A DNA stretch of 54,578 bases from Synechococcus sp. AG-679-B05 (GTDB lineage Bacteria > Cyanobacteriota > Cyanobacteriia > PCC-6307 > Cyanobiaceae), in assembly GCA_003210795.1 (NCBI GenBank), contig QCUJ01000009.1, positions 1-54,578 on the forward strand. The letters run 5' to 3'. A program made the position numbers and the translations under genes. Below are positions 6,305-47,807 of the stretch, in pieces. Positions within the stretch are counted from its first letter, which is position 1. Every line of letters starts with the position of its first letter. A model generated the notes under the pieces. It made no database searches and was not told the origin of the DNA. It saw nothing but the letters and a program-made list of their open reading frames with translations.

Positions 6305-6421
6305 TCACATTGGGTGGAAGAGAAGATCAGGGAAGAAGCGATTCCACTCGATCAATATCCCAGCAGTCATGGTGAAAAACAGAGCAGCGACAACTGGTGC
6401 TGTTGAAAGAAATTTTTTCAT
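6305..6421 (-). CDS. psaJ: Photosystem I reaction centre subunit IX
   Basis: A 38-aa single-span membrane protein beginning [16 protein letters not shown] and ending [13 protein letters not shown], the PsaJ pattern. PsaJ sits at the periphery of PSI next to PsaF and binds chlorophyll. It starts 36 bp downstream of psaF on the same strand, so a psaFJ transcript is likely, ending at the hairpin at 6250-6280. Confidence 0.95.
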
Positions 6422-6457
6422 GAATTTGGTGAGATTAGGAGACGTGGAATGAACTAT

Positions 6458-6934: not shown

Positions 6935-7012
6935 CGGAACAATTCCTGTTGGTTGTTGCCCCTGAGAGGGGAGGATGTCACATATGAACATTAGGGGAGG
7001 CCTAAGACCGCG

Positions 7013-8095: not shown

Positions 8096-8144
8096 GACCG
8101 TTGTTTTCTGAGACTTTTGTTTTCTGAAGCTGTTGTTTCCTGAG
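8081..8144 (+). repeat. Four-copy 16-bp tandem repeat overlapping the tsaD stop
   Basis: Units start at 8081, 8097, 8113 and 8129. The first two are identical (ACCGTTGTTTTCTGAG); the third and fourth carry a few substitutions. Every unit contains a TGA, and the first unit supplies the tsaD stop codon. Since 16 is not a multiple of three, the units place stops in successive frames. It looks like a local duplication of the tsaD 3' end. Confidence 0.9.
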
Positions 8145-8216
8145 CCTGGGTCGTCGGAAGACAGCGGAAACTCGATCAATCGAACTAGCATCCAGCCCCC
8201 CCTTAGATCCAATTTC

Positions 8217-8396
8217 ATGGCTGAGTCAGTCAAAGCTTCAGTTAGGGAGCCGGAACTCGTCGGTGCCGACGAGCTCAATGCCTGGAAACGAGGATTCACA
8301 CCCCAGGCCGAAATCTGGAATGGTCGACTGGCCATGATCGGGCTCTCAACCGGACTCGCCGTTGTGTTGTTTGTGCGGGTTTTCGCGAGTACTTGA
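8217..8396 (+). CDS. hli: High-light-inducible protein
   Basis: A 59-aa one-helix protein of the Lhc-like superfamily. The chlorophyll-binding ExxNxRxAM motif appears as EIWNGRLAMIG, preceded by WKRGFTPQ and followed by the hydrophobic helix LSTGLAVVLFVRVF. HLIPs protect photosystems and dissipate excess energy under stress. The Met at 8217 is preferred over an upstream in-frame Met because the intervening sequence is the repeat-rich intergenic region. It abuts the pilT pseudogene tail. Confidence 0.93.
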   Translation: MAESVKASVREPELVGADELNAWKRGFTPQAEIWNGRLAMIGLSTGLAVVLFVRVFAST

Positions 8397-14218: not shown

Positions 14219-14238
14219 TGCGACTGAAGTTGTTTGAA

Positions 14239-14312
14239 CGGGACCGACGGGATTCGAACCCGCAACTTCCGCCGTGACAGGGCGGTGCTCTAACCGGTTG
14301 AACTACGGTCCC
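14239..14312 (-). tRNA. tRNA-Asp (GTC)
   Basis: The reverse strand folds into a standard cloverleaf: acceptor GGGACCG pairs with CGGTCCC, the anticodon stem CCGCC/GGCGG encloses CTGTCAC with anticodon GTC, and the T-arm carries TTCGAAT. The 3' CCA is not encoded. Position 73 is G, the usual Asp discriminator. Confidence 0.96.
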
Positions 14313-14485
14313 AAACCAAAACAACAACTCGGGAAATCGTCCCGCTGAAGCTGATCGGTGCCGCCTCGGCGACCAGAGAAGTATCTATCGGGACCATGCC
14401 GTCCGTCAATACCAATAAAGGCGTTGATTGCATTTTGAAGGGTTGAACCAGCCAGGAACAGCCAAAAATTTCGGACAGACAAAAT

Positions 14486-14503
14486 CCCGGGTGTTTGCCC
14501 GGG
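14486..14503 (-). terminator. Terminator hairpin after the 62-aa gene
   Basis: CCCGGG and CCCGGG flank a 6-nt loop and form a 6-bp GC-only stem. On the minus strand it is followed by ATTTT, 44 bp after the stop of the 14547-14735 gene. The T tract is short, so strength is uncertain. Confidence 0.6.
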
Positions 14504-14546
14504 AGAGAAGTGGTGAATCCACCAATTCAGACAAGGGGCTCAACCG

Positions 14547-14735
14547 TCAGGGACGGAAGCCGGCGGGTTCAATGAGACGGACCTGGTTACCGCGGGCGGT
14601 GAATTCCCTGCCCTGGTCGCTTTGAACGACCACTCGACCACCTGATTTGACGCGAATGACGCGGGCTCGAACCCAGCCAAGGGCGGCTGACTCAAGCACC
14701 TTCACAACATCACCAGGTTGAAGATCCAACTCCAT
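14547..14735 (-). CDS. Conserved small SH3-like protein, 62 aa
   Basis: Short basic protein starting MELDLQPGDVVKVLESAALGW with VRARVIRVKSGGRVVVQSDQG, a pattern like an SH3/KOW-type beta barrel (alternating Val and Gly turns). No known function recognised. It lies between tRNA-Asp and tRNA-Trp on the same strand as both. Confidence 0.65.
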   Translation of the reverse strand: MELDLQPGDVVKVLESAALGWVRARVIRVKSGGRVVVQSDQGREFTARGNQVRLIEPAGFRP

Positions 14736-14773
14736 GCTCAGAACCGGGAAACTGCACTAAGGGGGTCATCGGA

Positions 14774-14846
14774 CGCGCCGTGGAGGACTCGAACCCCCGA
14801 CATCAGGTTTTGGAGACCTGCGTTCTACCAACTGAACTAACGGCGC
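14774..14846 (-). tRNA. tRNA-Trp (CCA)
   Basis: Cloverleaf on the minus strand: acceptor GCGCCGT/ACGGCGC, anticodon stem CAGGT/ACCTG around CTCCAAA (anticodon CCA), T-arm with TTCGAGT. It is 61 bp downstream of rplS on the same strand. The 3' CCA is not encoded. Confidence 0.95.
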
Positions 14847-14907
14847 AAGGCGATGAACCCCCGACCAACAAAAAGTGTTGGTGTCTTGATTGAACGAGGC
14901 CGAAACC

Positions 14908-35250: not shown

Positions 35251-36264
35251 TCAGCCCGGACTGTTATTGGTCTCGGATGCAACACAGTCCTGCAGCTGCT
35301 GCCGCAGTGTGTCGTGATCCAAGTCGCGTCCGATCATCACCAGTTGGTTCTTGCGAACACCAGTCCAATCGGTGTCGTCGATGGAAAAGCGCTTGCCAGC
35401 CAGGTGGAACACATGACGGCGCTCACTCTCCTGGAACCAGAGGATCCCCTTGGAGCGGAAAACCTCCTGCGGCAATTGGTTATCGAGAAAGTTCTGAAAT
35501 TTTCGTAGGGAGAAGGGCCCATCACTCTGGAAGGACAGTGATGTGAATCCATCAATCGCCAGGTGATCGGCTTTGACGCCGTGGTCATGGCTGTGCCCGT
35601 GGTCATGGCTGTGCCCGTGGTCATGGCCGGGTGCAACAACTTTGTCTGATTCGAACAGTCCGACGCTCAGCAGCAACGGCAGGGGAACATCGCCTTTGAC
35701 CGAATGAAGAATGCGGGCATCGTTCTTCACCGCCCGCAGGGTCTGCTCAAGATCCTTCAAGCGCTGTTCCGGCACCAGGTCGCACTTGTTCAGGAGCAGG
35801 ATGTCGCCATAGACCACCTGGGCTCGTCCCACCTGGGTGTCGAGCACGTTGTCGTCGAAATTTTCAGCATCAATCAAGGTGATGATTGAGTCGAGCCGAG
35901 TTGAATCCCGCAGCTCGCTTCCCAGAAACGTCATGGCAACCGGCAGAGGATCTGCCAGGCCAGTGGTTTCCACCACGATGTAATCCATCGGACTGGGTCG
36001 CTCCAGGATCCGCTCCACCGCACTCAGAAGCTCGTCATTGATCGAGCAGCAGATGCAGCCGTTGCTGAGCTCCACGGTGTCGTCGTCGGTGGTGACGATC
36101 AGATCGTTGTCGATCCCGATCTCACCGAATTCGTTCACGAGCACTGCAGTTTTCACACCCTGCTGGTTGCTGAGAATGTGATTCAGCAGGGTGGTTTTTC
36201 CTGCTCCCAGAAAGCCACTGAGAATGGTTACTGGAACACCGGAGGTTGAGGGAGCGGCGGTCAT
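35251..36264 (-). CDS. cobW: CobW/COG0523 family GTPase (putative metallochaperone)
   Basis: A 337-aa G3E GTPase: Walker [14 protein letters not shown], the CxCC metal motif in [11 protein letters not shown], switch region [12 protein letters not shown] and [10 protein letters not shown] central His-rich metal-binding stretch ([16 protein letters not shown]) points to zinc. COG0523 proteins of this type (ZNG1-like) hand zinc to client enzymes under limitation. A Fur/Zur-like inverted repeat sits 3 bp upstream of the start. It follows the pterin dehydratase gene on the same strand. Confidence 0.88.
35581..35627 (-). repeat. 18-bp tandem repeat coding for the His-rich linker
   Basis: Two perfect 18-bp units (35581-35598, 35599-35616) plus a partial third. 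On the coding strand they spell repeated HDHGHS, giving the CobW His-rich stretch. Repeat-number change would change zinc-binding capacity without a frameshift. Confidence 0.85.
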
Positions 36265-36266
36265 TC

Positions 36267-36281
36267 CGAGAATGATTCTCA
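36267..36281. promoter_or_regulatory. Fur/Zur-like operator at the cobW start
   Basis: Imperfect 7-1-7 inverted repeat whose core GAGAATGATTCTC is a perfect 13-bp palindrome. It fits TGAnAATnATTnTCA, a pattern I recall for cyanobacterial Zur sites, with one mismatch. It ends 3 bp before the cobW ATG and lies in the 19-bp gap after the pterin dehydratase gene. Binding here would block initiation of a short leader or read-through expression. Confidence 0.65.
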
Positions 36282-36283
36282 GC

Positions 36284-36574
36284 TCATGTTGGCAGCAGCG
36301 TGTCGATTGCGATGGCCAGCTCGGTATCCAGGTCGCTGAGGCCGCCGAGATCGTGGGTGGTCAATTCAATCGATACGCGGTTGTAAACGTTGCTCCAGTT
36401 CGGATGATGGTTGCGGCTTTCGGCCAGCAGGGCTACTCGGCTCATGAAACCGAAGGCCTCCACGAAGTCGCGGAACTGAAAATCACGGCGCAGCTTTTCA
36501 CCATCAACGACCCAGTTGGGGTGAGTTGAGGCAAGGGCAGAGCGCTGGCTCTCGTTGAGTCGCTGGGTGGACAT
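36284..36574 (-). CDS. 4a-hydroxytetrahydrobiopterin dehydratase (PCD/DCoH)
   Basis: A 96-aa protein with the family pattern [20 protein letters not shown] and [20 protein letters not shown], where the NHHPNW histidines form the pterin site. The role in cyanobacteria lacking aromatic amino acid hydroxylases is unclear. Followed by cobW on the same strand. Confidence 0.93.
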
Positions 36575-36610
36575 GGGGCAAACGATGGGTGCCTGAATCC
36601 TGGCCGCAGC

Positions 36611-37276
36611 TCACTCCTCCTGGGCGATGTCATGCAGACGATCCACCAGCAGGTCCACGTCGGTGTCGGCGCCGCCATCGGTGGCCCAGGCCTCTGGGTC
36701 ATGGCGTGCTTGCACCAGTGAATTCAGCTTGCTGGTGTTGCGGCGTTGCAGCAGTGTCGTTGCGTTTTCTCGATGTGGTTCTGCTGCAAGACCTCCGCGG
36801 CTGGGTCTCAGAACTCCGACTGCATGGCAAGCAATGCGTCGCTTGTGAGCAGCTGATCGGTGTTCCCAGAGGTAAATCCCCTGCCAGGTTCCCAGCAGCA
36901 GCCTTCCGCCGTCGACGCTGAGGCTCAGGGTTTGGCTTGTCAGAGCTGTCCTGATGTGGGCAGGCATGTCGTCGCGGCCTTCGTCGTCATGGCGGTAGCG
37001 GATCCGAGTGCCATCGGGATTCAACGGTCCGCTGCCGTCCTGAGGCACGACAGCATCCATCCACCTCTGTAGGTCGTGGAGAACCCTTGGGTCAGCGTTC
37101 TCGTTGATCGTGAGGCTGCAGCTAGTATGTTTCGCGTATAAAGTCAAGAGCCCAGTCTGCATCTGGGTTTCTGCCACCCAATCGTTCAATCGTTGGGTGA
37201 TGTTTGTAAACCCTTGCCCTTGCGTCTGAACGACTAGTTCATCAAGTGCCTGAGAATTCCCATGGATCACCTGCAC
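36611..37276 (-). CDS. yjbQ: YjbQ/UPF0047 family protein, hybrid made by element insertion
   Basis: A 221-aa protein with the YjbQ core: TGLLTLYAKHTSCSLTINENADPRV, the YRHDDEGRDDMPAH metal-site region and GTWQGIYLWEHRS. The family includes enzymes with thiamine phosphate synthase activity. Residues from about the Ser-Leu at the att core onward come from the host gene; the first roughly 54 residues come from the mobile element. The start is GTG at 37276 (or GTG at 37270), overlapping the divergent recombinase start by 31 bp. A roughly 70-aa extension follows the usual family end. Confidence 0.8.
   Translation of the reverse strand: MQVIHGNSQALDELVVQTQGQGFTNITQRLNDWVAETQMQTGLLTLYAKHTSCSLTINENADPRVLHDLQRWMDAVVPQDGSGPLNPDGTRIRYRHDDEGRDDMPAHIRTALTSQTLSLSVDGGRLLLGTWQGIYLWEHRSAAHKRRIACHAVGVLRPSRGGLAAEPHRENATTLLQRRNTSKLNSLVQARHDPEAWATDGGADTDVDLLVDRLHDIAQEE
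37112..37118. repeat. Left attachment core
   Basis: GAGGCTG, identical to the right-end copy at 45206-45212, in the same codons (Ser-Leu on the minus strand) of both yjbQ-like parts. Short cores suit serine integrases. Confidence 0.65.
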
Positions 37277-38877
37277 GGATCGCCTTCAGTTACGAACGGG
37301 TTAGCAGCCGAAGGCAGGCTGGGGAAGGGAAAAAAGGTATTGAGCGTCAGCACGAAGACTTCGTTCCTTTCTGCGAGCGCCATGGCCTGACGCCCAACCC
37401 AGATCCAATCAAGGACCAGGGCCTAAGCGCCTATACGGCGAAGCACATGAAGAAAGGGAATCTCGCGGGCTTTTTCAAGGCTGCTGAAGACAAAAAAATC
37501 CCCTGGGGGTCAGTTCTTGTCGTTGAGGACTGGTCTCGCTTCAGCAGGCGCAAGGCCAGCTATTCATTCGAGATGCTGCATGCCTTGTGGAGTCTTGGGT
37601 GCGCTCTCGCTTGGGTTCGCGAAGACATTGTCATCACACGCGAGAGGTTCGATTCCGATCAGCTTCTGCGCATCAAGTTGGACCTCGCTATTGAGGCGGC
37701 CCATAACTTCAGTGCTGGTCTGAGCAAAACCAACTCTCAGGTTTGGGATCTGCGCGAGAAGGAATACTTCCAGAGCGGCATCAAGTTCCTCAGCATGTCC
37801 AGCGCACCCGACTGGGTTCGGGTGAACAGTGACGAGACGGACTTCGAGGAGAACGAACGCGCCGACTGGATGCGTGAGATCTTCCAGCTCCGTAAGGAAG
37901 GCATGGGTGCGAAGCAGATCGCCTTCGCAATGAATGACCTTGGCCGCACTATGTCCGAGGGCGGTAGCTTCAGCGAAGGAAGGGTGGGTCGCATCCTTCG
38001 CGATCGACGCTTGATCGGTGAGAAGAAATTCAAATCAGGCCGCGTAGCTAAGGGCTATTTCCCCCGCGTTATCCGCACCAAGCTCTGGGAAACCGTTCAA
38101 GGATTGGTGGATGCCAAGCCTGGTGGCACTGGCCGCGGCGATGAGTGCAGGAATATCCTTCAGGGTCTGACTAAGTGCACCTGCGGCGGCACGTTGTCTT
38201 GGCAGGGCGCTCACAAGGACAAGACGACTGGTGAGTACCGCTATGCCTACCTGGTTTGCATGAACCAGAGGAACAGCACCTGTACCGCTCCGAAGGGCAA
38301 CTGGAAGTACGACGAAGAGCTTCTTGTCCACGCCTTGATGGATGCCAGGTGGGAGGACCTCTTCAGTGCGCCACGCGACACCAAAAAGATTGCTGAACTT
38401 CAAAACCAGCTCAAGGATCAAGAGGCTGAAATTGATCGACTTCAAGAGACAGTCGACAACAACGCCGCCAACCTGGCATTAGCGATGGGCTCAAAGGATT
38501 TCGATGCCGAAGCCATCAAACTCATGACTGGGGTCGGCAAGGACGCCAAGAAAACTCTCGCCAAGGCGCAAGCGGCTGCCGATGAAATCAGCAGGCAGAA
38601 CGAGGTGCTGAACCTTGCGCCATCTGGCGATGACATCAAAAAGGAAGTCCAGCGCCGCACCAAGGATTTCCTCGGCAACCTCGAAGACAAAGAGCAGCGC
38701 AGAGCGTTTAACAACTGGGTCAACACTCTTGGAGTGGTCGTTGAGATCACTCACACCGGTCAGATGCGGTTCATGAAGGATGGCGGTGTTGAGCAGCTCG
38801 ACGTTTACCGAGAGGGCGACACCATCGTTCTGGATCAGACGCGGCAGGATGCCGCTGTTCTGGGAGTTAAGGCTTAG
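37246..38877 (+). CDS. Large serine recombinase
   Basis: A 543-aa site-specific recombinase. N-terminal resolvase domain: RIAFSYERVSSRRQ with the catalytic Ser at about residue 20, then VVEDWSRFSRR. Middle: recombinase domain with GMGAKQIAFAMNDLG and GRVGRILRDRRLIGEK. Zinc ribbon: CTCGGTLSW and CMNQRNSTC. C-terminal coiled coil (ELQNQLKDQEAEIDRLQETV). It starts at GTG next to attL and can mediate integration and excision at the yjbQ site. It ends with TAG, overlapping the next convergent gene by 4 bp. Confidence 0.93.
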   Translation: MPENSHGSPARIAFSYERVSSRRQAGEGKKGIERQHEDFVPFCERHGLTPNPDPIKDQGLSAYTAKHMKKGNLAGFFKAAEDKKIPWGSVLVVEDWSRFSRRKASYSFEMLHALWSLGCALAWVREDIVITRERFDSDQLLRIKLDLAIEAAHNFSAGLSKTNSQVWDLREKEYFQSGIKFLSMSSAPDWVRVNSDETDFEENERADWMREIFQLRKEGMGAKQIAFAMNDLGRTMSEGGSFSEGRVGRILRDRRLIGEKKFKSGRVAKGYFPRVIRTKLWETVQGLVDAKPGGTGRGDECRNILQGLTKCTCGGTLSWQGAHKDKTTGEYRYAYLVCMNQRNSTCTAPKGNWKYDEELLVHALMDARWEDLFSAPRDTKKIAELQNQLKDQEAEIDRLQETVDNNAANLALAMGSKDFDAEAIKLMTGVGKDAKKTLAKAQAAADEISRQNEVLNLAPSGDDIKKEVQRRTKDFLGNLEDKEQRRAFNNWVNTLGVVVEITHTGQMRFMKDGGVEQLDVYREGDTIVLDQTRQDAAVLGVKA

Positions 38878-39791
38878 TCAAATAAGACCAAGTCGTTCAT
38901 ACAGCTCGTATAAATCTTCCTTTCGGCCACCTTTTTCCACTTTTCTATGATATCCACCGAATGAATGATGCTCCAAAGACTCTCGTCTTCTAGTTCAGGA
39001 TGTCGTTTTTTAATGTGTCTGAATATAGCTGAGTACTGCTTCAGCATCCGATCAAATGATTCGATATTGTCTTCTTCTTTGCTGCTGTCTTGGGTGAAAA
39101 TAAGATCCCACATTATCTTCCCTGGAATATCAGGATTGTTTTTCGCTGAAACCTGATAAAGATCGACTTGCTTTTTGGCCTTTCGCTTTAGGGCTTCAGT
39201 TGGGTCTTCCTCAAAAATGCCGTTGTAATCAGGGTTTTGCGCCCATTGTTCTTGTATAATGCGGTACAAAACTCGCTCTTCTTGAGAGACCACGAGTTGA
39301 TCAAAACACGTTTCTAATCCGTCATAACTAGAGGAGAAAAGCCGGCCGCACTCTTGGCTTAGCCAGTCTTTGAAGCCACAGACTTCAGTGTCGGCGAGTC
39401 GCAGCGTTTCCGTGTACCCCTTCCATTTCCTCTTCACCAGGATTGGTATCTGTTCGACGTATCGAATGTTTGTCGCCAAGGCGTATTGATCAAATAACCA
39501 GCAATTACTCATTGGGATGTCGCCTACATGCTCTGCGACGGCACTGTCGAGACAGCTCTCCCAGAGCGGTGACCCATATTCAGGATCGCCAGCCCTCAGT
39601 CGCGACTTCTTCGTTTTCAGCTGTTCAATCCCGGGCTTGTATAAGCCAGGGTGGTTCTTCATGCTGAAGAGATAGACAGACCCCGGCTCATCCCCGTTCG
39701 GGAAAGTGCCGTCGAGAAAGCTGGTGACTGAGGGCCAGACCTTATCCATCCAGCCATTTTCTCTCAGGGCTTTAAGCCCTCCATCTCGCAC
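38874..39791 (-). CDS. GIY-YIG/T5orf172-like nuclease-domain protein
   Basis: A 305-aa protein with GSVYLFSMKNHPGLYKPGIE followed by a SRLRAG arginine and a later TETLRL acidic residue, resembling the GxVY...YKxGI...R pattern of GIY-YIG/T5orf172 nucleases. The rest is helical and charged (SSKEEDNIESFDRMLKQYSA). Starts at GTG, overlapping the upstream HTH gene by 28 bp. The assignment is by motif only. Confidence 0.5.
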   Translation of the reverse strand: MRDGGLKALRENGWMDKVWPSVTSFLDGTFPNGDEPGSVYLFSMKNHPGLYKPGIEQLKTKKSRLRAGDPEYGSPLWESCLDSAVAEHVGDIPMSNCWLFDQYALATNIRYVEQIPILVKRKWKGYTETLRLADTEVCGFKDWLSQECGRLFSSSYDGLETCFDQLVVSQEERVLYRIIQEQWAQNPDYNGIFEEDPTEALKRKAKKQVDLYQVSAKNNPDIPGKIMWDLIFTQDSSKEEDNIESFDRMLKQYSAIFRHIKKRHPELEDESLWSIIHSVDIIEKWKKVAERKIYTSCMNDLVLFD

Positions 39792-40165
39792 TGGGAACGC
39801 AACTCAGCAAGCGTTCGGCAGAACAGCCGTAGACGTTGCGGATCCGATGGCTCCTGCCAATAAGCAGTTGCACCATCCAGCACGAAGCTGAGCTTGTCGC
39901 TCAACCGCTCCCAGTAGTCCGTTGCGATGGGTGGCGGAACGGTCGGTCCCTCTACCTGCCGATTTTGCGTTTTGCGTTGTGGTTTATCAATCCGCGGTCG
40001 CGTTGTTTGCCTAAACCTCACCTCCAGGCCTGGGCGATGCAGCAGCCGACGTCGACTGTCCGCATACTCGAGACGACCATCCCGGATCGCCCGACTCACC
40101 GCTGAAACACTGCGATTCAGGATCGCTGCGGTTTCTTTTTGGGTGATCAGATCTCCGGTTGCCAT
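39764..40165 (-). CDS. HTH DNA-binding protein
   Basis: A 133-aa protein starting MATGDLITQKETAAILNRSV, a helix-turn-helix (SVSAVSRAIRDGRLEYA) like that of excisionases, MerR-type or small terminase-type proteins. The C-terminal part is helical. Probably regulates the element or acts at DNA ends; the exact role is unknown. Confidence 0.65.
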   Translation of the reverse strand: MATGDLITQKETAAILNRSVSAVSRAIRDGRLEYADSRRRLLHRPGLEVRFRQTTRPRIDKPQRKTQNRQVEGPTVPPPIATDYWERLSDKLSFVLDGATAYWQEPSDPQRLRLFCRTLAELRSQCEMEGLKP

Positions 40166-40291
40166 GGTGCTGCGCTTGAACGGCCCTAATGGCGCTTAAT
40201 CGGGCTTATTTGCGGTAGTTCCAGAGGCTGTGCCTGGACACAACGAGTGGCTGCGAATGATCCACGTGAGACAGCGCTGGAAGGACCCTGA

Positions 40292-40462
40292 TTACTCGCC
40301 GCACTTACAGCCGCAAGAGCCTGCACCATGACAGGGCTCATTGTTGACATGCCCTGTTGAACAGGATGTCGAGCAAAAGAACTTTCCCTCAAGAACAATT
40401 GCGCCCTCTTTAGTGACTTCGCAGGTGCACTTAGCGCATGCACACTTGACAGCTGTTGACAT
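40292..40462 (-). CDS. smtA: Metallothionein (SmtA/BmtA type)
   Basis: A 56-aa Cys-rich protein beginning MSTAVKCACAKCTCEVTKEG, then GKFFCSTSCSTGH and ending HGAGSCGCKCGE. It has nine cysteines and two histidines in the CxC/CxxC pattern of cyanobacterial zinc-finger metallothioneins that bind four Zn2+. It sequesters and buffers zinc. Two Fur/Zur-like 15-bp boxes lie 61 and 87 bp upstream of the start. It is a cargo gene of the integrative element. Confidence 0.92.
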   Translation of the reverse strand: MSTAVKCACAKCTCEVTKEGAIVLEGKFFCSTSCSTGHVNNEPCHGAGSCGCKCGE

Positions 40463-40522
40463 TTAAACCGATCAAGCATCTGGCAAAAATTATAACGCAT
40501 GAAGAGGGCTTAAGTATAAAAA

Positions 40523-40563
40523 AGAGAATCATTATCAACAGAAAATAATGATAACCATTCTCG
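40523..40563. promoter_or_regulatory. Paired Fur/Zur-like operators upstream of smtA
   Basis: Two 15-bp boxes, 40523-40537 (AGAGAATCATTATCA) and 40549-40563 (TGATAACCATTCTCG), arranged as imperfect inverted copies 26 bp centre to centre. They fit TGAnAATnATTnTCA with one and two mismatches and resemble the cobW box at 36267-36281. In marine Synechococcus, Zur is reported to activate a metallothionein gene from upstream sites; the spacing here would allow that. Confidence 0.7.
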
Positions 40564-40868
40564 GTGGTTGTGAGTCAATTAGTCGCTCTTCGCGATCTGG
40601 CCAAGCTGCTCCAGGCGTCGCCATGTGCTGCTGCGCCCGCCAAGCACAGATCTACAAGAAAACCATCACCGAGATCTTTGGAGATGACTATCGCTTCGAT
40701 ATCTACGACATGCGGCACCGCTGGGCCGTGCGGTCAATCGAAGCCAACGTGAACCAGAGCCTCTGTGCCCAGAGCATGGGGCACTCGCTGGAGATGCATG
40801 AGCAGCGTTACCAGCGCTGGATGACAGCAACAGACCTCAGGGCCGCAATGGTGAAGCTCACCAAGTAG
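40548..40868 (+). pseudogene. Tyrosine recombinase C-terminal remnant
   Basis: The frame encodes the catalytic end of a phage-type integrase: IYDMRHRWAVRSIEANV (RHxxA-type box), AQSMGHSLEMH (GH-S box) and the nucleophile region EQRYQRWM. The N-terminal DNA-binding and first catalytic Arg regions are missing; the frame opens inside the smtA operator region. A decayed older integrase. Confidence 0.75.
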
Positions 40869-40946
40869 CTCCGCAGCACATAGAAAATCGAACGCTTGCA
40901 AATAAGCAACACGTGAAATGAACACTCCCGATGACTCTTCTTGAAC

Positions 40947-41108
40947 ATGGGAGAAGCGCTAGAGAGCTTTGCGAGAGAAAACGGAGTTACCCCTGAAGAA
41001 GTTCAGTCTTACTTTAGGAACACTTATTCCTTGCTAAGGGGCACACACCAACGATTAAACCCTGTTGGTGATTCACTCACCCCAACCTGCCAAACACTTC
41101 ACCCGTGA
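40947..41108 (+). CDS. Small hypothetical protein, 53 aa
   Basis: ATG at 40947 reads MGEALESFARENGVTPEEVQ and ends after TCQTLHP. The first part looks helix-turn-helix-like. No family. Low confidence; it sits in an AT-rich stretch before the sulfotransferase gene. Confidence 0.35.
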   Translation: MGEALESFARENGVTPEEVQSYFRNTYSLLRGTHQRLNPVGDSLTPTCQTLHP

Positions 41109-41270
41109 GATGGACCGTTTCTGTGACAGCGCTGAGTTAGGTTCACACCAGACATCAGACACAAACTTGACCGTCAACGGGTCCGTTGCGGGGATGGGGT
41201 CGAGAAGAGGGAAGAAAACTGAAGACGTACAATGCATTAAGCAGACATAGCAGCGAAGACCATCTTAGGA

Positions 41271-42170
41271 ATGAGCCAAATCATCTTGCATATCGGCACA
41301 CCAAGGACAGGTACATCGACACTTCAGAAGCACATTCTTCCTTTGGCAAAAAATACATTCCTTCTTTCAAAAGAAGCGTACAAGTCATCCTTAAACAAAA
41401 CACACAGGGGATCGGTGCACATCACGATAGGCAACTTAAAAGAAAAGATCAACGAGATTCGCATCGAGGAAAATAAGGCAGAATTTTTGCAACTACTCAT
41501 GACTTGCCTGCTCGGAACATGCAGAGAAGAGCCCTACCCAGTGTGCATTGACATAGCCATGAATGCAATATCAAAAATGGTAAAGCAAGCAGAGGGCAGA
41601 ACTATCTTTTTCTCAAGCGAAAAACTTTGCGACACTTCTGCGTCACTGCAAGGGGACTCCCACCACTCAAAAACAGATGCAATATTTGGGGTGCACTCTC
41701 TATCGCATATATACTCCGAAACAATTAAAAAGAAAGTCAACATATGTCTTTGCCTTAGGGAACCAATCAAATACCTTCGTTCCAAATACCTGAGAACCGT
41801 AGTACAAAGGCACCTGACTAATTCCAGGCAACTATCTGCAAGTGAATATATTCACAAACAAACAGCTCTCGAAACCAGCAATCCAGGCACATCAGCACTT
41901 ACACCAGCAATGCATGCAGAGTTTATGAAACAGCTTCAAAAGCATGCATTCGTCAAAGCATTCGGTTTTCAGGAGCTCCTTGCTTCTGACGATGTCTTCT
42001 CATTATTGGGTCTACATGGAGAAGACAAGTACGCCTTCCGAAACTTCCCCAAAGAAAACAAACTTCCCTTCGCCAAGCAGCAGGAGGAGGCAATCGAGAT
42101 CGAAATCACTAAGGCACTCCAGCAATATGGCTTTTATGATCAGATTATGAAGGCGCAGATGTTTGAATAA
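41271..42170 (+). CDS. Sulfotransferase-like P-loop protein
   Basis: A 299-aa protein with the 5'-phosphosulfate loop IILHIGTPRTGTSTLQK and a 3'-phosphate-like segment CLCLREPIKYLRSKYLR, the pattern of PAPS-dependent sulfotransferases, which modify polysaccharides or lipids at the cell surface. The coding sequence is AT-rich compared with flanking core genes, consistent with transfer. No partner genes nearby. Confidence 0.7.
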   Translation: MSQIILHIGTPRTGTSTLQKHILPLAKNTFLLSKEAYKSSLNKTHRGSVHITIGNLKEKINEIRIEENKAEFLQLLMTCLLGTCREEPYPVCIDIAMNAISKMVKQAEGRTIFFSSEKLCDTSASLQGDSHHSKTDAIFGVHSLSHIYSETIKKKVNICLCLREPIKYLRSKYLRTVVQRHLTNSRQLSASEYIHKQTALETSNPGTSALTPAMHAEFMKQLQKHAFVKAFGFQELLASDDVFSLLGLHGEDKYAFRNFPKENKLPFAKQQEEAIEIEITKALQQYGFYDQIMKAQMFE

Positions 42171-42808
42171 TTTTAATTTAAATGATGACAACACTCTCAA
42201 CAAAGTTTCATTACTTGGCGACAGCCCTGTTCATGTTTTCAAACTATTAGATCAATTCAAGGCTGATTTCTCCATATCACACTGCATGGTCATAGGATTA
42301 TCTGCCCAAAGAGCAGTTAATCCTCATCCCAAAACCAATACCTTTCCAATCCTAGAGATGCACTGTCAAAAAATGCCGAATCGCATACACACTGAATGAC
42401 AATGCTTGAAGAGGTTGAATGTTGTTTTGTAATTTGGTAGCAATAAAGAGATATTAGGACAGTTCAGTAGCTAACTCGAGAGGTCACTGAAAATACACGC
42501 CAATTCCTGCAGCGCAAGAGCACTGAGAGGAACAGGCCCAAACTAGGCCCACCCCTGCAGGGTCAAGGCCAGAAGGCTTGCGATTACTGGTGACTCTCGG
42601 AGATCTGCAAGCGGCCTATTTGATCTAAGCATGGAACTATGCCTTCGAAGAATTGGGCAAATAGAAGCGCTTATAAGCGGGGCCCCCAATGCGGATAATT
42701 ACCACCAGGTCGGTGTGACCCACCAGAAATCCGATGCACACCAGCGAAGGCAATGACACCCTGTGTCTCCGTTACACCCTCCGCACTCTCCGCATCCTCC
42801 GCACTGCT
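42171..42808. other. Non-coding or weakly coding stretch in the element
   Basis: 638 bp with no convincing ORF. It includes a triplet of 9-bp repeats (CCCTCCGCA-type, 42777-42803) just after the ATPase stop. An AT-rich frame at 42163-42399 looks random. I found no tRNA. Confidence 0.45.
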
Positions 42809-44008
42809 CTAATGAGGAGAAATCGGAGTGGAGTTCTTATCAACCAGCCCGTCATTGGAAGGGTTCGGAGACTCCGGGGACTGAGGAGGGTCTTTTGGGC
42901 ACACTGGAAGCCGCAGCTTCGCTTGGCTCAGATCTGCACCGAATGGCCGGTACAGGTTGCGCTTGGCACCACCAGCACCAAGGCATCGCTTATCCACCAA
43001 CGCCTTACGGTGGAGCTGGTCGAGATTTTCGCGAGCCTTTCGATCCTTTTCCTTACCGGTGTATTCCCCAGGCAAACGTTCCACCAGCCACCCAGCTTCC
43101 ATCTCGTGACGGTCCTCATCCCAAGCATCACGAACCTCAGCCAGGGCGAATACCTGACGTTCGGTGAGATTCTCCTCAGCTTTTTTGCGCCCCTCTTCTT
43201 TAGCGATGTCATCCAGATCACCAACCAAGACCCAGGAACACGCTTCCACCTGTTCAATCACCAAGCCAACCGGTTTGGCCTGCCTACCTTCGGTGGTTAG
43301 GGCAATGCGATTGTCGGTTTTGTTCTTGTCATCAACCCAAGCCAGTTGAACGATCCGGCTAACTGCCCCTGGTACGGCTGTGCTGCCGCGAGAAGCCGTT
43401 GAACCCCTCTCACCCTCATTCCCCTTCCCGGAGTGATGCAGGACGATTGTGGTGACTCTGTACTTCTCCATTTCACGGGAGAGAGCACGCAGTGGCTCAG
43501 CGAAATCAGCATCGTTCTCTTTCAAGCCAAGCGGGCCGGTAAGACAGCTAAGTGAGTCGCAAATCAGCAAAGCGCCGGGATGCTTTGCTACCCATTTGCC
43601 GAGGTTGGCGATGCCTTCCTCATCCAGAAAGATCGGCGCATCTTGCGTCCACAGCTTTTTGATTTCAGGGGCAAGCTGAAACTCAGCATTGTCATCATCG
43701 ATCTGCTTCTTGGTGGCCAGGCCAGCCGCTTCGAGGTACCAGGTCCAATCAGCTTTGCCCTGGTCAGTGCCTGCAATCAGGATCGCTGGGCGCTCTGGTG
43801 GCTGAGCTATTGAGATGCCCATGGCACTGCTGCAATTAAGCCAGCAGCGCAGCAGGTAGACGATCAGAGAGGTCTTACCAACCTTCTCCCGTGCAATCAG
43901 GAGATTGACGCAGCCAAGAAGGAAGATTTCTTTCCACAACCACTTTGTGACCGGGACGCGGGTGGATTCACTCGCGTATATCCATCCTTCAAGTTGTGGG
44001 CGGCACGT
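42809..44008 (-). CDS. RepA/KaiC-like AAA ATPase, main part (frameshifted)
   Basis: The frame starts after a TGA at 44009-44011 and encodes an ATPase with LLGCVNLLIAREKVGKTSL (P-loop KVGKTS), DSLSCLTGP (Walker B-like) and VLHHSGKGNEG, typical of RecA/KaiC-fold replicative helicase-like proteins of the RepA/AAA_25 group. No ATG exists in frame at the start (TTG at 43939), and a separate frame upstream (43897-44145) matches the missing N-terminal part. The C-terminus is Pro/Ser-rich. Probably part of the element's replication. Confidence 0.75.
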   Translation of the reverse strand, partial: TCRPQLEGWIYASESTRVPVTKWLWKEIFLLGCVNLLIAREKVGKTSLIVYLLRCWLNCSSAMGISIAQPPERPAILIAGTDQGKADWTWYLEAAGLATKKQIDDDNAEFQLAPEIKKLWTQDAPIFLDEEGIANLGKWVAKHPGALLICDSLSCLTGPLGLKENDADFAEPLRALSREMEKYRVTTIVLHHSGKGNEGERGSTASRGSTAVPGAVSRIVQLAWVDDKNKTDNRIALTTEGRQAKPVGLVIEQVEACSWVLVGDLDDIAKEEGRKKAEENLTERQVFALAEVRDAWDEDRHEMEAGWLVERLPGEYTGKEKDRKARENLDQLHRKALVDKRCLGAGGAKRNLYRPFGADLSQAKLRLPVCPKDPPQSPESPNPSNDGLVDKNSTPISPH

Positions 44009-44145
44009 TCACCCTGCTTGTCGAGCCATTTGACCTGGCGGTCATTCAGGCTGACACCAGCGTCATAAGCAATGGCTCGAAGGGAAGCCTGGCGCTGATG
44101 CAATGGCTGCTCTTCACGGTGGAATTGCTCCGCGATTTGGAGCAT
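43897..44145 (-). CDS. RepA/KaiC-like ATPase, N-terminal fragment
   Basis: ATG at 44145 gives MLQIAEQFHREEQPLHQRQAS and VSLNDRQVKWLDKQGE, then runs off into a shifted frame (NPPASRSQSGCGKK). The main ATPase frame continues as ESTRVPVTKWLWKEIF from the same DNA. A one-base shift between 43900 and 44008 would join them. Confidence 0.65.
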   Translation of the reverse strand: MLQIAEQFHREEQPLHQRQASLRAIAYDAGVSLNDRQVKWLDKQGERAAHNLKDGYTRVNPPASRSQSGCGKKSSFLAASIS

Positions 44146-44174
44146 GTCTGACCAGAACTTTGGATTACCTGCAC

Positions 44175-44405
44175 TTAACGCTGGTGTTGGTGACGATGCG
44201 GGGCGTAATTTTTTGGTCTGTGTTTTTTACCGAGTACAGATTCAGCGACTGAACGCAAGTCTTCGAGATTTTCAATATCAGCGAGGCGCCGCGAATAGTT
44301 GCCCATTGAGATATCGGTCTCATTGGGTTCTCCTTGCGCTTTACCGCGACGCTTGAGTTCATTGAAAGCGTCGATCTCCTTTTTTCGATCCTTTTTCCAC
44401 TTCAT
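44175..44405 (-). CDS. Hypothetical protein, 76 aa
   Basis: Starts MKWKKDRKKEIDAFNELKRR and ends with a His-rich tail (NYAPHRHQHQR). Highly charged and helical. A strong ribosome-binding site (AGGAGGT) lies about 6 bases before ATG 44405, in a small hairpin. No family. Upstream of the ATPase gene on the same strand. Confidence 0.6.
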   Translation of the reverse strand: MKWKKDRKKEIDAFNELKRRGKAQGEPNETDISMGNYSRRLADIENLEDLRSVAESVLGKKHRPKNYAPHRHQHQR

Positions 44406-44412
44406 CGCTGAC

Positions 44413-44426
44413 CTCCTCGTGAGGAG
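44413..44426 (-). promoter_or_regulatory. Hairpin covering the ribosome-binding site of the 76-aa gene
   Basis: CTCCTC and GAGGAG form an inverted repeat that pairs the AGGAGG site with an upstream CCTCC on the mRNA. This could limit translation initiation until the ribosome or a factor opens it. Confidence 0.5.
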
Positions 44427-44471
44427 CGACAAGTGCCACTGCCAATAAAATCGGAACAATGACTTCCGGGG

Positions 44472-44501
44472 TCTCGCTGTTGGCGTAGCGGGGCTTTTTT
44501 T
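44472..44501 (+). terminator. Plus-strand terminator inside the minus-strand operon
   Basis: TCTCGCT pairs with AGCGGGG (two wobble pairs) and is followed by a T run (44495-44501) on the plus strand. It points against the surrounding genes, so an antisense or small RNA reading rightwards may end here. Confidence 0.5.
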
Positions 44502-44505
44502 ATTG

Positions 44506-44598
44506 TCATGAGCCCAGCCGCTCACGCTTGGTGCGCTGAGCAAGAGCGCTCTCAACCGCTTCTGGATCCCAACGAAGCTGGGGCTTGGGGGTCTTCAT
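44506..44598 (-). CDS. Tiny hypothetical protein, 30 aa
   Basis: ATG at 44598 directly follows the stop of the 91-aa gene (TGA then ATG). It reads MKTPKPQLRWDPEAVESALA and ends RTKRERLGS. Coupling and clean coding suggest a phage-like small gene; no function. Confidence 0.45.
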   Translation of the reverse strand: MKTPKPQLRWDPEAVESALAQRTKRERLGS

Positions 44599-44874
44599 TC
44601 ATCCCAGCTCCTGGTCCTGCTCACCGATGACTCGATCCAGATGTTCGATGCAGGCCTGAATTGCGAGGGCATGGTGAAACGATCGGCGCGAATTCAACCT
44701 TTTGACCAATTCGAGCCTGCGCTCTGATGCCCGCTTGTACATCTCGGCCATCTTGTGAGGGCCGAAGATCTCGACGGCGTGGCCTTCACGACCAAGCACC
44801 TGGCCTGTTTGGAACTTGGTGATCTCTTCGAGATTCCTGGAAAGGAACTCGATCTCTTCGTTGGTGAACTGCAT
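44599..44874 (-). CDS. Hypothetical protein, 91 aa
   Basis: Helical and charged: MQFTNEEIEFLSRNLEEITK and MAEMYKRASERRLELVKRLN. No membrane segment or known motif. Lies between the two plus-strand terminators on the minus strand, probably part of the element's early operon. Confidence 0.55.
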   Translation of the reverse strand: MQFTNEEIEFLSRNLEEITKFQTGQVLGREGHAVEIFGPHKMAEMYKRASERRLELVKRLNSRRSFHHALAIQACIEHLDRVIGEQDQELG

Positions 44875-44901
44875 CTAAAATTGGGTTCAGGAATTTTCTG
44901 G

Positions 44902-44933
44902 TTTCCCTCGGTTGCAGCCGGGAAATTTTTTTT
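44902..44933 (+). terminator. Second plus-strand terminator
   Basis: TTTCCC and GGGAAA form a stem around a 12-nt loop, followed by eight T bases on the plus strand. It reads against the minus-strand genes and immediately precedes the RHH stop. Confidence 0.55.
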
Positions 44934-44934
44934 G

Positions 44935-45060
44935 TCAGCTCTTCGGCAGCGCTTGATCGAGCGCAGCGCGAATTACTTCCGCACGGGGCACGTCGTATTG
45001 CTTGGCGGTCGCATCGACGCGAGCAGCCAGTGAGCGATCGACATCGCACTGGAGCTTCAC
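44935..45060 (-). CDS. Ribbon-helix-helix protein (CopG type)
   Basis: A 41-aa reading from GTG: VKLQCDVDRSLAARVDATAK then YDVPRAEVIRAALDQALPKS, a typical RHH (strand then two helices). The open frame extends upstream to a TAG near 45160 without an ATG, so the true start may be ATT near 45148 or this GTG. RHH proteins regulate plasmids and toxin-antitoxin genes; here it sits next to the right end of the element. Confidence 0.6.
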   Translation of the reverse strand: MKLQCDVDRSLAARVDATAKQYDVPRAEVIRAALDQALPKS

Positions 45061-45178
45061 GTCACGCTTCGCCTGAATTGGAAGCGGATCGGGTATGGAT
45101 TCAGTCCGGGATTCGGTGGACGAATCCTTTTTGGCATCAATCCAGATCCCTTTCTAAGACTGAAATCTGAGCCTCTGC

Positions 45179-45385
45179 TCAGCTTTTATATGAAAATTTG
45201 ACAGAGAGGCTGGCACTCGTGTGCAGGCAGGTGAGATGCAGCATTCCCTGCTGCAGTCCTTGCCCATCGAGCCAATCGTTCAGCTGTTCATTGAGCCGCG
45301 TGAATCCGCTCCCCTGGGTGTTCACCTCCAGCTGCTCCAGACTCTGATGCAGGGCCATCTGCCGGGCATGGTGCGAACTCTCCAT
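45179..45385 (-). pseudogene. yjbQ: Displaced 5' part of host yjbQ
   Basis: Minus-strand frame with LEQLEVNTQGSGFTRLNEQL, DWLDGQGLQQGMLHL and CLHTSASLS, matching the first part of the YjbQ fold. At the att core it runs into element sequence (VKFSYKS then stop). Joined to the 3' part at 36611-37118 it would rebuild an ordinary yjbQ. Likely start ATG at 45385 or 45358. Confidence 0.8.
45206..45212. repeat. Right attachment core
   Basis: GAGGCTG, same as 37112-37118, positioned in the Ser-Leu codons of the truncated yjbQ 5' part. Confidence 0.65.
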
Positions 45386-45451
45386 TCTGCTGCTTGGCCA
45401 CAGTCCCCACTCCAGCTGGTTCATCGTGGGCTCTGTTGTGCGCCGCTGGCC

Positions 45452-45877
45452 ATGAATGCATCCTCCGCGGCCCAGCTGACGCTTCTCTTCGATGGCGGCT
45501 GTCCTTTGTGTGTGCGCGAGGTCCGTTTTCTGGAACGGCGCGATCGTGCCAAGCGGATTCGATTTGTGGATATCGATGCGCCGGATTACAACCCCTCTGC
45601 CCATGGAGAAATCGGGTATCGGGAGGCTATGGGCCGGATTCACGCCATCTGCTTAGACGGAACGGTCCTGCGGGATGTGGCGGTGTTCCGCGAGGCCTAT
45701 CGACTCATCGGCCTCGGATGGCTTTATGCCCCAACGCGTTGGCCGCTCATCTCCCCCATCGTCGATCGCATTTACGCCATCTGGGCTGCGCGACGTTTGC
45801 AGCTCACCGGGCGTCCTGATCTGGACACCCTCTGCAGTGACCGCAATGCCTGTCGGGTGTCATCGACCCAGGATTAA
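45452..45877 (+). CDS. DCC family (DUF393) protein
   Basis: A 141-aa protein with LTLLFDGGCPLCVREVRFLE, the DxxCxxC (DGGCPLC) thioredoxin-like motif of the DCC family, then FVDIDAPDYNPSAHG. Thiol-disulfide exchange is inferred. The longer upstream frame overlaps the yjbQ remnant and is not used. Confidence 0.82.
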   Translation: MNASSAAQLTLLFDGGCPLCVREVRFLERRDRAKRIRFVDIDAPDYNPSAHGEIGYREAMGRIHAICLDGTVLRDVAVFREAYRLIGLGWLYAPTRWPLISPIVDRIYAIWAARRLQLTGRPDLDTLCSDRNACRVSSTQD

Positions 45878-45909
45878 ACGGTTGTCGATCGCTGGATCCC
45901 TCTCCAAAA

Positions 45910-46098
45910 TTGGATTTCGAGAGGGACTTTCCGGTGAAGGATCAATCTGCAACCCCTTACGAGGGCTTCTCAGAGCGTGTGACCGATGGCAGTGATGTCG
46001 ATCGGCAAAATGCCTACGGGCGCTGGCTGAAGCGACTCAGGGGCAACCAGGGACGCTCGGGAGGCGAGCAACAGGCTTCATCCGAGAACAAGAGCTGA
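45910..46098 (+). CDS. Small hypothetical protein, 62 aa
   Basis: Starts at TTG, MDFERDFPVKDQSATPYEGF, with a basic RWLKRLRGNQGR segment and a Ser/Glu tail. Soluble, no family. Plausible conserved small protein. Confidence 0.5.
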   Translation: MDFERDFPVKDQSATPYEGFSERVTDGSDVDRQNAYGRWLKRLRGNQGRSGGEQQASSENKS

Positions 46099-46105
46099 TC
46101 AGACG

Positions 46106-46198
46106 TCAGTTCGATGGCCGTCGGTAGATCACCTTCAAGGGCCACAGAGCGATCGGCAAAGAGATCGCGATAGCTGTCTTGATCAGGAAACGACGCAT
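46106..46198 (-). CDS. Tiny basic peptide, 30 aa
   Basis: ATG at 46198 gives MRRFLIKTAISISLPIALWP then a basic end. One hydrophobic helix. Could be a small membrane protein or chance. Confidence 0.3.
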   Translation of the reverse strand: MRRFLIKTAIAISLPIALWPLKVIYRRPSN

Positions 46199-46301
46199 GT
46201 CACCGCGGAACGCGACTGTTCCAGGTTGGCCTCAGATTGCAAGGTTTGGCCACTGCCGCTCCAAACATGCTCGTTAGGGTCTGATCAGAAGCTTTGTCCG
46301 G

Positions 46302-47807
46302 ATGGCGTCGGCCGCATCGGCCTGGGATCGGTTGGGGATGCACTTGCGGGACACCCAGTTGCTTGGCTCGATTCAAAGCACCTTGTACTGGGACCAGAAC
46401 ACGAGAATGCCCAGCGGCGGAGCAGCATGGCGGGGTGAGCAGCTGACGTTGCTGGCCCGACAGCTGCATGCACGTCAGAGTTCCAGCCTCTATGCCGATC
46501 TGGTGGCCGAGGCTCGTCAGGCCTGGGCGAGCGGCGAACATTGCGCGCAGCAGGGGCGCAACCTTGATCTGCTTGAGCAGGACCTCCGTCGTCAGCAGGC
46601 CCTGGATCCTGAACTTGTCGCCTCCATCGCCACGGCCAAAGCCAAGGGGTACAACTGCTGGCAACAGTCGCGTGCAGCATCAGATTTTGCTGGCTTTGCT
46701 CCTGCACTCCAGACGCTCATCGATCTGCGCAAGGAGCAGGCCCGCCAGCTGCAGGAACCGCGTTCCTGCTGGGAAACGCTGGCACAGCCGTTTGAGCCGG
46801 ATCTGAACCTCAAGCGCCTGCAGGAGCTTTTTGCGCCCTTGCGGGCGCGATTGCCTGAGCTGGTGAAAGAAACCCGGGCGATTTCCCAGTCCCGCACGAT
46901 GGAGTGGGATCTGGATGAACCAGCTCAGCAGCAGTTGTGCGAGCAGTTGCTGCGCTCATGGGGGCGGGATTCCGCCATCACCTGCATGGCGCGGTCTCCA
47001 CACCCGTTTTCCATCACCCTTGGCCCTGCGGATTACCGCATCACGACACGGGTTGTTCCAGGTCAGCCCCTCTCCTGTTTTCTTGCAACGGCCCATGAAT
47101 GGGGCCACTCCCTTTACGAGCAGGGCCTGCCGGATCAGAGCCATCAGTGGTTTACCTGGCCCCTTGGACAGGCCACGTCCATGGCGGTTCATGAAAGCCA
47201 GTCGTTGTTCTGGGAAAACCGGGTGGCCCGCAGTCTCCCCTTTGCGCATCAGTGGTGGCAGCGCTTCGCTGAGGCAGGTGCACCACTGACATCCGCCGGC
47301 GATCTGTGGCGGGCGATGAATCCCCTCGCTCCAGGTCTGAACAGGGTGGAGGCCGATGAACTCAGCTATGGATTGCATATCCTCATTCGTACCGATCTCG
47401 AAATTGCATTGCTGGAACAGGGATTAGCGGTGCAGGACCTCCCTAATGAGTGGAATCAACGCTATGGGCAGCTCCTTGGGGTTCAGCCGGCTAGCGATGC
47501 AGAGGGATGTCTCCAGGATGTGCACTGGAGCGAGGGTCTCTTCGGGTATTTCCCGTCCTACCTGCTGGGGCATTTGATCAGTGCCCAGTTGTCTGAGGCC
47601 ATGGAGACTGAGATTGGTTCCCCGGAAGAGCACATCGCCGCAGGGGATGTGACCCCCATGCTCGGCTGGTTGCGTCAGAACGTCCATGGTGTGGGCAGGG
47701 CTCTGAATGCCGAAGATCTTGTTCAGAAGGTCACGGGCCGCCCGTTGGACAGTGCTGCGTTTCTTCGTCACTTAACCGCCAAGTTGAATCGTCTTGCGAC
47801 GTTGTGA
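46302..47807 (+). CDS. Carboxypeptidase Taq (M32) family metallopeptidase
   Basis: A 501-aa metallocarboxypeptidase. FLATAHEWGHSLYEQG carries the HExxH zinc site, and SMAVHESQSLFWEN the third ligand Glu. Helical fold, no signal peptide. Removes C-terminal residues from peptides in the cytoplasm. Confidence 0.92.
   Translation: MASAASAWDRLGMHLRDTQLLGSIQSTLYWDQNTRMPSGGAAWRGEQLTLLARQLHARQSSSLYADLVAEARQAWASGEHCAQQGRNLDLLEQDLRRQQALDPELVASIATAKAKGYNCWQQSRAASDFAGFAPALQTLIDLRKEQARQLQEPRSCWETLAQPFEPDLNLKRLQELFAPLRARLPELVKETRAISQSRTMEWDLDEPAQQQLCEQLLRSWGRDSAITCMARSPHPFSITLGPADYRITTRVVPGQPLSCFLATAHEWGHSLYEQGLPDQSHQWFTWPLGQATSMAVHESQSLFWENRVARSLPFAHQWWQRFAEAGAPLTSAGDLWRAMNPLAPGLNRVEADELSYGLHILIRTDLEIALLEQGLAVQDLPNEWNQRYGQLLGVQPASDAEGCLQDVHWSEGLFGYFPSYLLGHLISAQLSEAMETEIGSPEEHIAAGDVTPMLGWLRQNVHGVGRALNAEDLVQKVTGRPLDSAAFLRHLTAKLNRLATL

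Follow-up and report, generated by a model that had tools for sequence, protein, structure and literature searches.

The yjbQ locus and the genomes compared

The window, that is, the whole 54,578-nucleotide (nt) stretch analysed here (contig QCUJ01000009.1 of Synechococcus sp. AG-679-B05, assembly GCA_003210795.1), carries a small integrative element lying inside yjbQ, a gene whose product belongs to the UPF0047 family. A gene for a large serine recombinase (LSR) adjoins one boundary of the element, and the remainder encodes, among others, a metallothionein, a replication-type ATPase and two small DNA-binding-type proteins (Table 1). By sequence comparison with related genomes we establish an empty site, a hybrid reading frame, a displaced native fragment, a second element, incongruence between the N- and C-terminal parts of YjbQ in four genomes, and apparent relics of former insertions, which together point to an element that exchanges the N-terminus of its host protein. 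The genome of the window is a 1.88 Mb draft in 109 contigs (77% complete), and the relatives compared (G numbers are our own handles for genomes) come from partial samplings of genomes, many of them drafts, G007 and G573 being single contigs each. Genes of the cytochrome f, Rieske and PsaF-like types, along with the small genome size of the relatives, point to a picocyanobacterium of the Synechococcus type.

Element ends and the empty site

Two copies of GAGGCTG (37112-37118 and 45206-45212) bracket the element inside yjbQ; with one core copy included, its size is 8,094 base pairs (bp). At the empty locus of G015 (L047), window positions 45198-47000 align to 6234-8036 at 95.0% identity and positions 35673-37118 align to 8022-9467 at 97.6% identity, the two flanks overlapping by 15 bases within a single intact yjbQ on one continuous stretch. 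Because both flanks join in one G015 stretch, the ends of the element are exact and not due to chance. G002 is likewise empty at yjbQ, with flanks aligning at 83% and 85%. An earlier note on this DNA had placed the element in yjbQ with junctions at GAGGCTG, and the 3' part of the gene (36611-37118) and its true 5' part (from 45213 upward) at opposite ends; the element-free relatives G015 and G002, with their intact yjbQ and exact junctions, bear out both statements.

The bases shared at the junctions read CAGCCTC for the window and, for a second element, that of G007, AGCTGCAG. Only CAG, the intersection of the identical bases, is common to both; the crossover therefore lies most simply at CA or AG, and probably within CAG. 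An exact empty site with this short identical core is found in G015, G002 and G032. The target gene is present in 30 of 34 same-genus genomes (the window's own included). The same note had called yjbQ a little-described insertion site, and in a partial coverage of the literature no paper pairing yjbQ with an integration site was found.

A hybrid yjbQ with a donated N-terminus

The gene is not merely split into two halves, as had been supposed: a replacement 5' end carried by the element restores a full-length frame, which extends 53 codons past the boundary, up to a GTG at 37276. The resulting product of 221 amino acids (aa) matches UPF0047 at E 4.8e-37 (Pfam), and the hybrids of the window and G007 score 127.1 and 130.6 bits, as compared with 120.8, 126.9 and 113.4 bits for the intact genes of G015, G032 and G022. 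Downstream of the core the window matches G015 at 46/47 nt, and upstream of it at 57/120; the donated 5' copy matches the G007 element at 97/120 nt, and the donated N-terminus is 43% identical to that of G015 over 47 aa. All 53 donated codons are open, with residues of the YjbQ family kept in both elements, and the donated part is open in all four hybrids that we identified (window, G007, G207 and G573). Between window and G007 the donated part, a short stretch of 45 codons, differs at 5 first, 6 second and 12 third positions, corresponding to nonsynonymous (dN) and synonymous (dS) divergences of 0.13 and 0.46.

The native 5' end, displaced to the far junction, is identical to intact G015 at 118/120 nt (91% over 54 aa) and is still recognized as UPF0047 (45182-45361, E 0.002, Pfam); its frame stops at 45179-45181, about 10 codons within the element. 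Judged by these alignments, the discarded piece is the native 5' end and the gene is regenerated as a hybrid, one side of the attachment site of the element being simultaneously coding sequence of the hybrid gene.

In an AlphaFold model of the hybrid the donated part is folded as strand-strand-helix-strand, with block-mean predicted local distance difference test (pLDDT) values of 90-92 for residues 11-50, and the junction falls after residue 53, at the HTS-carrying loop between strands 39-48 and 53-58. Mean pLDDT is 71.6 overall, the middle and the C-terminal extension being lower, and the modelled fold resembles YjbQ structures, e.g. 1vmf (E 7.7e-10).

The integrase and its overlap with yjbQ

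The recombinase that the earlier note had seen against one boundary is confirmed at 37246-38877, approximately 130 bp inside the left end, through matches to Pfam Recombinase (E 1.9e-10) and Resolvase (E 1.4e-7) and to a PHROG integrase (E 6.9e-45). Its order of domains is that of the LSR class (resolvase, recombinase, zinc ribbon, coiled coil): PF00239 at 13-129 and PF07508 at 204-289 pass their cut-offs, the zinc ribbon at 304-356 falls short of its own (20.8 bits where 25.3 are required), and coiled-coil-type matches near 379-464 are weak. The integrase GTG at 37246 and the donated yjbQ GTG at 37276 overlap head to head by 31 bp, and the same 31-bp overlap is found in G007 (16432 and 16462 of L046). 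This arrangement may couple integrase expression to the host gene. The integrase presumably performs the recombination at yjbQ.

A second element in G007

In G007, of the same genus, a full yjbQ and an N-terminal fragment of the gene lie about 13 kb from each other, separated by an integrase that is 84% identical to that of the window; the neighbouring genes are the same. Compared with the empty G032, its flanks join at the same yjbQ codon with a 26-base overlap. A new in-frame N-terminus with the native 5' end displaced to the far junction is found, then, twice independently. The module of integrase, element attachment site (attP) and N-terminal copy is 81% identical over 1,775 bp between the two elements, which also share an HTH_17 protein (43/101 residues identical) and a ribbon-helix-helix protein located at the far end (57% over 42 aa); no further genes in common were detected at E<=0.01 among all open frames of at least 40 aa. 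Either the HTH_17 or the ribbon-helix-helix protein may set the direction of recombination. The cargo of the G007 element consists of a primase-type protein, DrmC, a Cas4-like nuclease, a WYL/AAA protein and a small resolvase. The DrmC-family protein (PADLOC E 1.8e-135) and the Cas4-like nuclease (E 2.4e-10), encoded at L046 11078-12795, are possible defence cargo.

Probable relics in a second genus

G207 and G573 belong to a different genus (g30) of the same family. Their C-terminal parts are those of G167, G220 and G090, and their N-terminal parts, 96% identical to each other, are only 30-32% identical to those of their own hosts; the N-part of G207 is 60% identical to the window and 57% to G007, the next best being G102 at 47%. 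The match to G167 is lost in both genomes no more than about 13 bases from the same codon. In G573 a native N-terminus survives approximately 6.5 kb away, ending in a stop (read by eye) and decayed to 65% of that of G167, where 87% is usual among G167, G220 and G090; in G207 the displaced fragment is lost. The integrase model finds no match in G573 at E<=1, and in G207 yjbQ has no LSR beside it, a single distant one (E 2.2e-15) lying some 98 kb off. Past its donated start, G207 has a remnant of the integrase 5' end in register, agreeing at 28/50 nt; 20,000 shuffles gave a mean of 13.3 and a maximum of 26, and no other register exceeded 21. A stop lies just ahead of what we take to be the catalytic serine motif. 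The claim of a remnant rests on G207; in G573, where the anchor was one base off, agreement was 12/50 in the anchored register and 27/50 in the best of the others. Divergence between G207 and G573 amounts to dN 0.019 and dS 0.12 in the donated part (47 codons) and to dN 0.026 and dS 0.046 in the C-part (100 codons). The case for relics rests on the distance to the host, the breakpoint, the displaced fragment and the integrase remnant, and not on N-part similarity. An old insertion in the ancestor of the two, followed by loss of the integrase and retention of the hybrid gene, would be the simplest account; judging from these relics, the data suggest that insertions of the yjbQ type may rebuild the host protein permanently.

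Incongruence between N- and C-terminal parts

N-parts (47 aa) were compared with C-parts (up to 105 aa) in 75 picocyanobacterial yjbQ genes, taken from 76 loci (G423 was dropped, the motif not being found); trees were inferred from 65 of these genes after removal of 10 near-duplicates. Across 2,485 native pairs N identity tracks C identity with a residual standard deviation (sd) of 8.7, and the 82 native pairs with C identity of at least 88 have a median N identity of 91 and a lowest of 62. Hybrids paired with their nearest hosts gave C/N identities of 99/43 (window and G015), 92/38 (G007 and G032), 94/30 (G207 and G167) and 92/30 (G573 and G167), placing all four 5.0 to 6.2 sd below the native relation. 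The N-part tree unites the four hybrids in one branch, with a Shimodaira-Hasegawa-like approximate likelihood-ratio test (SH-aLRT) value of 94.7. Forcing them together in the C-part tree costs 152.8 log units and is rejected by the approximately unbiased (AU) test (p-AU 4e-42).

Proposed mechanism and alternatives

We propose, with a probability of roughly 0.88, that an LSR element exchanges the N-terminus of yjbQ by recombination of attP with the host site (attB), restoring the gene as a hybrid that persists after the integrase has decayed. The LSR would join attP to attB within yjbQ, where the codons are those for HTSC|SLTINENAD, and attP would contain, as one of its arms, a resident copy of the first 53 yjbQ codons, overlapping the integrase start. 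Integration would swap the N-terminal part of the host gene for this copy, yielding a full-length in-frame hybrid, and the native 5' end would be left behind as a fragment at the opposite junction. On excision the native yjbQ would be restored, and decay of the integrase would leave the hybrid in place, as it appears to have done in G207 and G573. The hybrid YjbQ is probably expressed and active.

Several points weigh against this proposal. It is built from sequence comparison, and the window junctions come from a 77%-complete draft (those of G007 and G573 are on single contigs). No sigma-70 consensus promoter was detected near the hybrid start, on either strand of 36900-37600. Inverted symmetry of attP around AG, at 13/28 in the window (P 0.016) and 12/28 in G007 (P 0.034), is weak and only suggestive, these being 2 of 16 combinations of site, centre and width with P<0.05, uncorrected. 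The branch uniting the hybrids by N-part falls just under the 95 mark, and placing the window with G015 and G002 in the N-part tree (47 columns) costs 27.6 log units and is not formally rejected (p-AU 0.095). The incongruence statistics are post hoc, the hybrids having been chosen beforehand by N-part search, and the identity of relic N-parts to the elements (57-60%) is no higher than predicted from the C-parts (+0.4 to +0.6 sd).

The alternative that survives best, although we consider it unlikely, is plain disruption, in which yjbQ is broken by the element and the continuation of its frame past the boundary is a functionless by-product of attP resembling attB. Expression and activity of the hybrid are indeed predicted from its sequence, a more distant LSR in G696 adjoins a yjbQ lacking a YjbQ-like N-terminus at this very codon, and the gene, not found in 4 of the 34 same-genus genomes (three of them only 53-63% complete), may be dispensable. 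A functionless frame is, however, difficult to reconcile with 53 open codons keeping family residues in both elements, with substitutions leaning to third positions, with profile scores equal to those of intact genes, and with a donated part that stays open in both relic species. Far less probable still are N-terminal swaps by homologous recombination or gene conversion between yjbQ alleles, to which the integrase would be incidental; these are possible in principle for G207 alone, where the displaced fragment is lost, whereas the window and G007 show both insertion ends, an integrase and empty relatives, G573 keeps the displaced native piece, and all four hybrids break at the same place. Two independent yjbQ-like genes lying side by side with no insertion, a candidate suggested by the two YjbQ N-terminal stretches in the window, has next to no probability and was rejected, the extra N-terminal fragment occurring only in G000 (the genome of the window) and G007 among the 34 same-genus genomes and both G015 and G002 being continuous at the site.

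N-terminus exchange by an LSR leads to a broader idea, for and against which we see the chances as about even: a serine-integrase family with a protein-coding attachment site may serve as a vehicle of permanent protein chimerism. In three lineages (window, G007, and G207 with G573) it would have joined one kind of YjbQ N-terminus to differing host C-terminal parts at one and the same codon, and in one of them that N-terminus would have become permanent after loss of the integrase. Donation of an N-terminus would be extended to LSRs and to a larger and more divergent donated part, and chimeric proteins could arise in this way with hardly a trace remaining after decay of the element. The locus also provides a compact integrase with a defined, conserved attachment site in a gene common among picocyanobacteria, and a direct test of how freely the N- and C-terminal parts of YjbQ can be exchanged.

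Relation to known integrative elements

Integrases of the dusA type are tyrosine recombinases, and SXT/R391 elements are conjugative, far larger, and also use a tyrosine integrase. The dusA islands (Vibrio IMEVchUSA3, Acinetobacter, Pseudomonas) target the 5' region of a coding gene, which thereby gains a new in-frame N-terminus in place of the displaced native one (PMC8409611, PMC4482086); IMEVchUSA3 also brings a promoter for dusA, demonstrated with lacZ (PMC8409611), and SXT is stated to do likewise in prfC (cited in PMC8409611). The strategy of N-terminus donation is already known, then, from dusA and prfC elements, and the yjbQ element resembles them in its working without being a member of those families. 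It has a serine recombinase, is far smaller than SXT/R391, and differs from dusA islands in target gene, hosts and cargo; IMEVchUSA3 donates 35 residues at 61% identity, as compared with 53 codons at approximately 43% here. The yjbQ element is set apart by the LSR class of its integrase, by a donated part that is larger and more divergent, by the overlap of site, coding sequence and integrase start, and by the relics.

LSR elements are known in coding genes (A118 in comK, Bxb1 in groEL1, SCCmec in rlmH), and share with the yjbQ element the recombinase class and a short junction core. To our knowledge their insertion either disrupts the gene or preserves or changes its 3' end, and we know of none that donates an N-terminus; no LSR precedent was found in the literature, which was covered in part. 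In regulated gene integrity a skin-like element interrupts a reading frame until it is excised; here the insertion itself restores the frame. Tycheposons of Prochlorococcus are, like the yjbQ element, small cargo-bearing integrative elements of picocyanobacteria, with tyrosine recombinases and transfer RNA (tRNA) targets; the yjbQ element has a serine recombinase and a coding target, and the window tRNAs (14238-14847) are far off.

Related recombinases in other genomes

Among 388 class genomes 2 matches to the integrase reached E<=1e-40, and among 400 family genomes 18 reached E<=1e-20, the best outside G000 and G007 scoring 314 bits as compared with more than 1,250. Neither the window integrase nor a two-row integrase alignment as query gave a confirmed further copy in GTDB contigs or IMG/VR; these negatives are weak because the scans may omit the window's own or very near genomes and returned no G007-like records. 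A degenerate hybrid-junction pattern had no match in IMG/VR. Matches were obtained in 17 of 50,697 phage records and 12 of 72,556 plasmid records, and among the matches listed all were below 30% identity and none covered 80% of the query.

LSR relatives in G009, G010 and G630, as well as a second LSR of G007, adjoin genes other than yjbQ; the LSR-bearing G594, G497 and G425 have a full-length yjbQ elsewhere, and in G560 and G583 no yjbQ lies beside the LSR among the open reading frames (ORFs) listed. In G696 (L144 92-1017), a 64%-complete genome, the start of a related LSR (47% over 156 aa) lies near a contig end, divergent from a yjbQ that is joined at the SLTINENAD codon and has no YjbQ-like N-terminus; it is perhaps a same-site relative that donates none. 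A broken LSR relative in G013 (L050 6185-9801, 37% over 380 aa) lies divergently against the 5' end of typA, perhaps reflecting the same 5'-end strategy at another gene. The yjbQ genes of G358 and G530 (L080 and L097, genus g34) have C-parts 95% and N-parts 62% identical and unlike 5' flanks, possibly another N-terminal swap, no element being shown there. The second, distant LSR of G007 (L053, 6807-8675), the start of which overlaps a phasin-like ORF (8620-9123), is accompanied by a major head protein (4544-5554, phrog_617 E 1.8e-34) and a primase-type protein, and is probably part of a prophage or remnant. The closely alike 619-aa LSRs of G010 (L051) and G009 (L052) share a downstream replication-type gene and adjoin different host genes, with a terminase small subunit in L051, as in mobile elements of looser site choice.

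Other genes of the element

Ten window proteins were scanned against Pfam and seven against PHROGs, a part of the ORFs. No capsid or conjugation family was detected among them, in agreement with the earlier note, nor any capsid match among the seven window and three G007-element proteins scanned against PHROGs. Packaging is represented only by a weak match of the HTH_17 protein to a terminase small subunit (E 0.0014), so that capsid or packaging genes of the prophage or phage-satellite kind are otherwise lacking in the proteins scanned. PHROG matches of the HTH_17 protein are weak and mixed, an excisionase following at E 0.0029 in the window and an excisionase/regulator at E 0.0031 in G007.

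Table 1. Features of the yjbQ element and its junctions in the window.
Feature	Coordinates	Strand	Basis or remark
Hybrid yjbQ, 221 aa; C-terminal part native, first 53 codons element-derived	36611..37276	-	UPF0047, 127.1 bits
Left core, CTG on + (CAG in yjbQ sense)	37116..37118		Identical-base intersection, window and G007 junctions
Element-borne 5' copy of yjbQ, also one attachment-site arm	37119..37276	-	Sequence comparison
Large serine recombinase (integrase), 543 aa	37246..38877	+	Pfam, PHROG; start overlaps donated yjbQ start by 31 bp
Unknown protein, 305 aa	38874..39791	-	Sub-threshold Pfam match, E 0.0078
HTH_17 protein, kept in G007 element; candidate directionality factor or regulator	39764..40165	-	Pfam, PHROG
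Metallothionein, 56 aa	40292..40462	-	PF02069, E 1.3e-11
Tyrosine-integrase C-terminal remnant	40548..40868	+	phrog_1, E 4.2e-6, profile 384-447 of 611
Possible sulfotransferase, 299 aa	41271..42170	+	Label from a P-loop-like motif; no Pfam or PHROG match
AAA_25 ATPase, replication type	42809..43939	-	PF13481, E 3.7e-14; phrog_30286, E 9.8e-53
Small ORF, 91 aa	44599..44874	-	No Pfam or PHROG match
Ribbon-helix-helix open frame near far end, start codon uncertain	44938..45153	-	RHH_1, E 0.00019
Right core, CTG on +	45210..45212		Junction comparison
Displaced native yjbQ 5' end	45210..45358	-	118/120 nt like G015

The metallothionein and the ATPase named by the earlier note are both upheld by their Pfam matches. 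Its sulfotransferase is not: the candidate is without a match in Pfam (E<=0.1) or PHROGs (E<=0.01), and the label derives from a P-loop-like motif that we presume to be of this type. The tyrosine-integrase remnant, lying within a serine-recombinase element, is a trace of another element. The alignment of the AAA_25 ORF to phrog_30286 begins only at profile position 107, and the start of this ORF is overlapped by one of 82 aa in another frame (window 42809-44145), pointing to a possible frameshift or unusual start.

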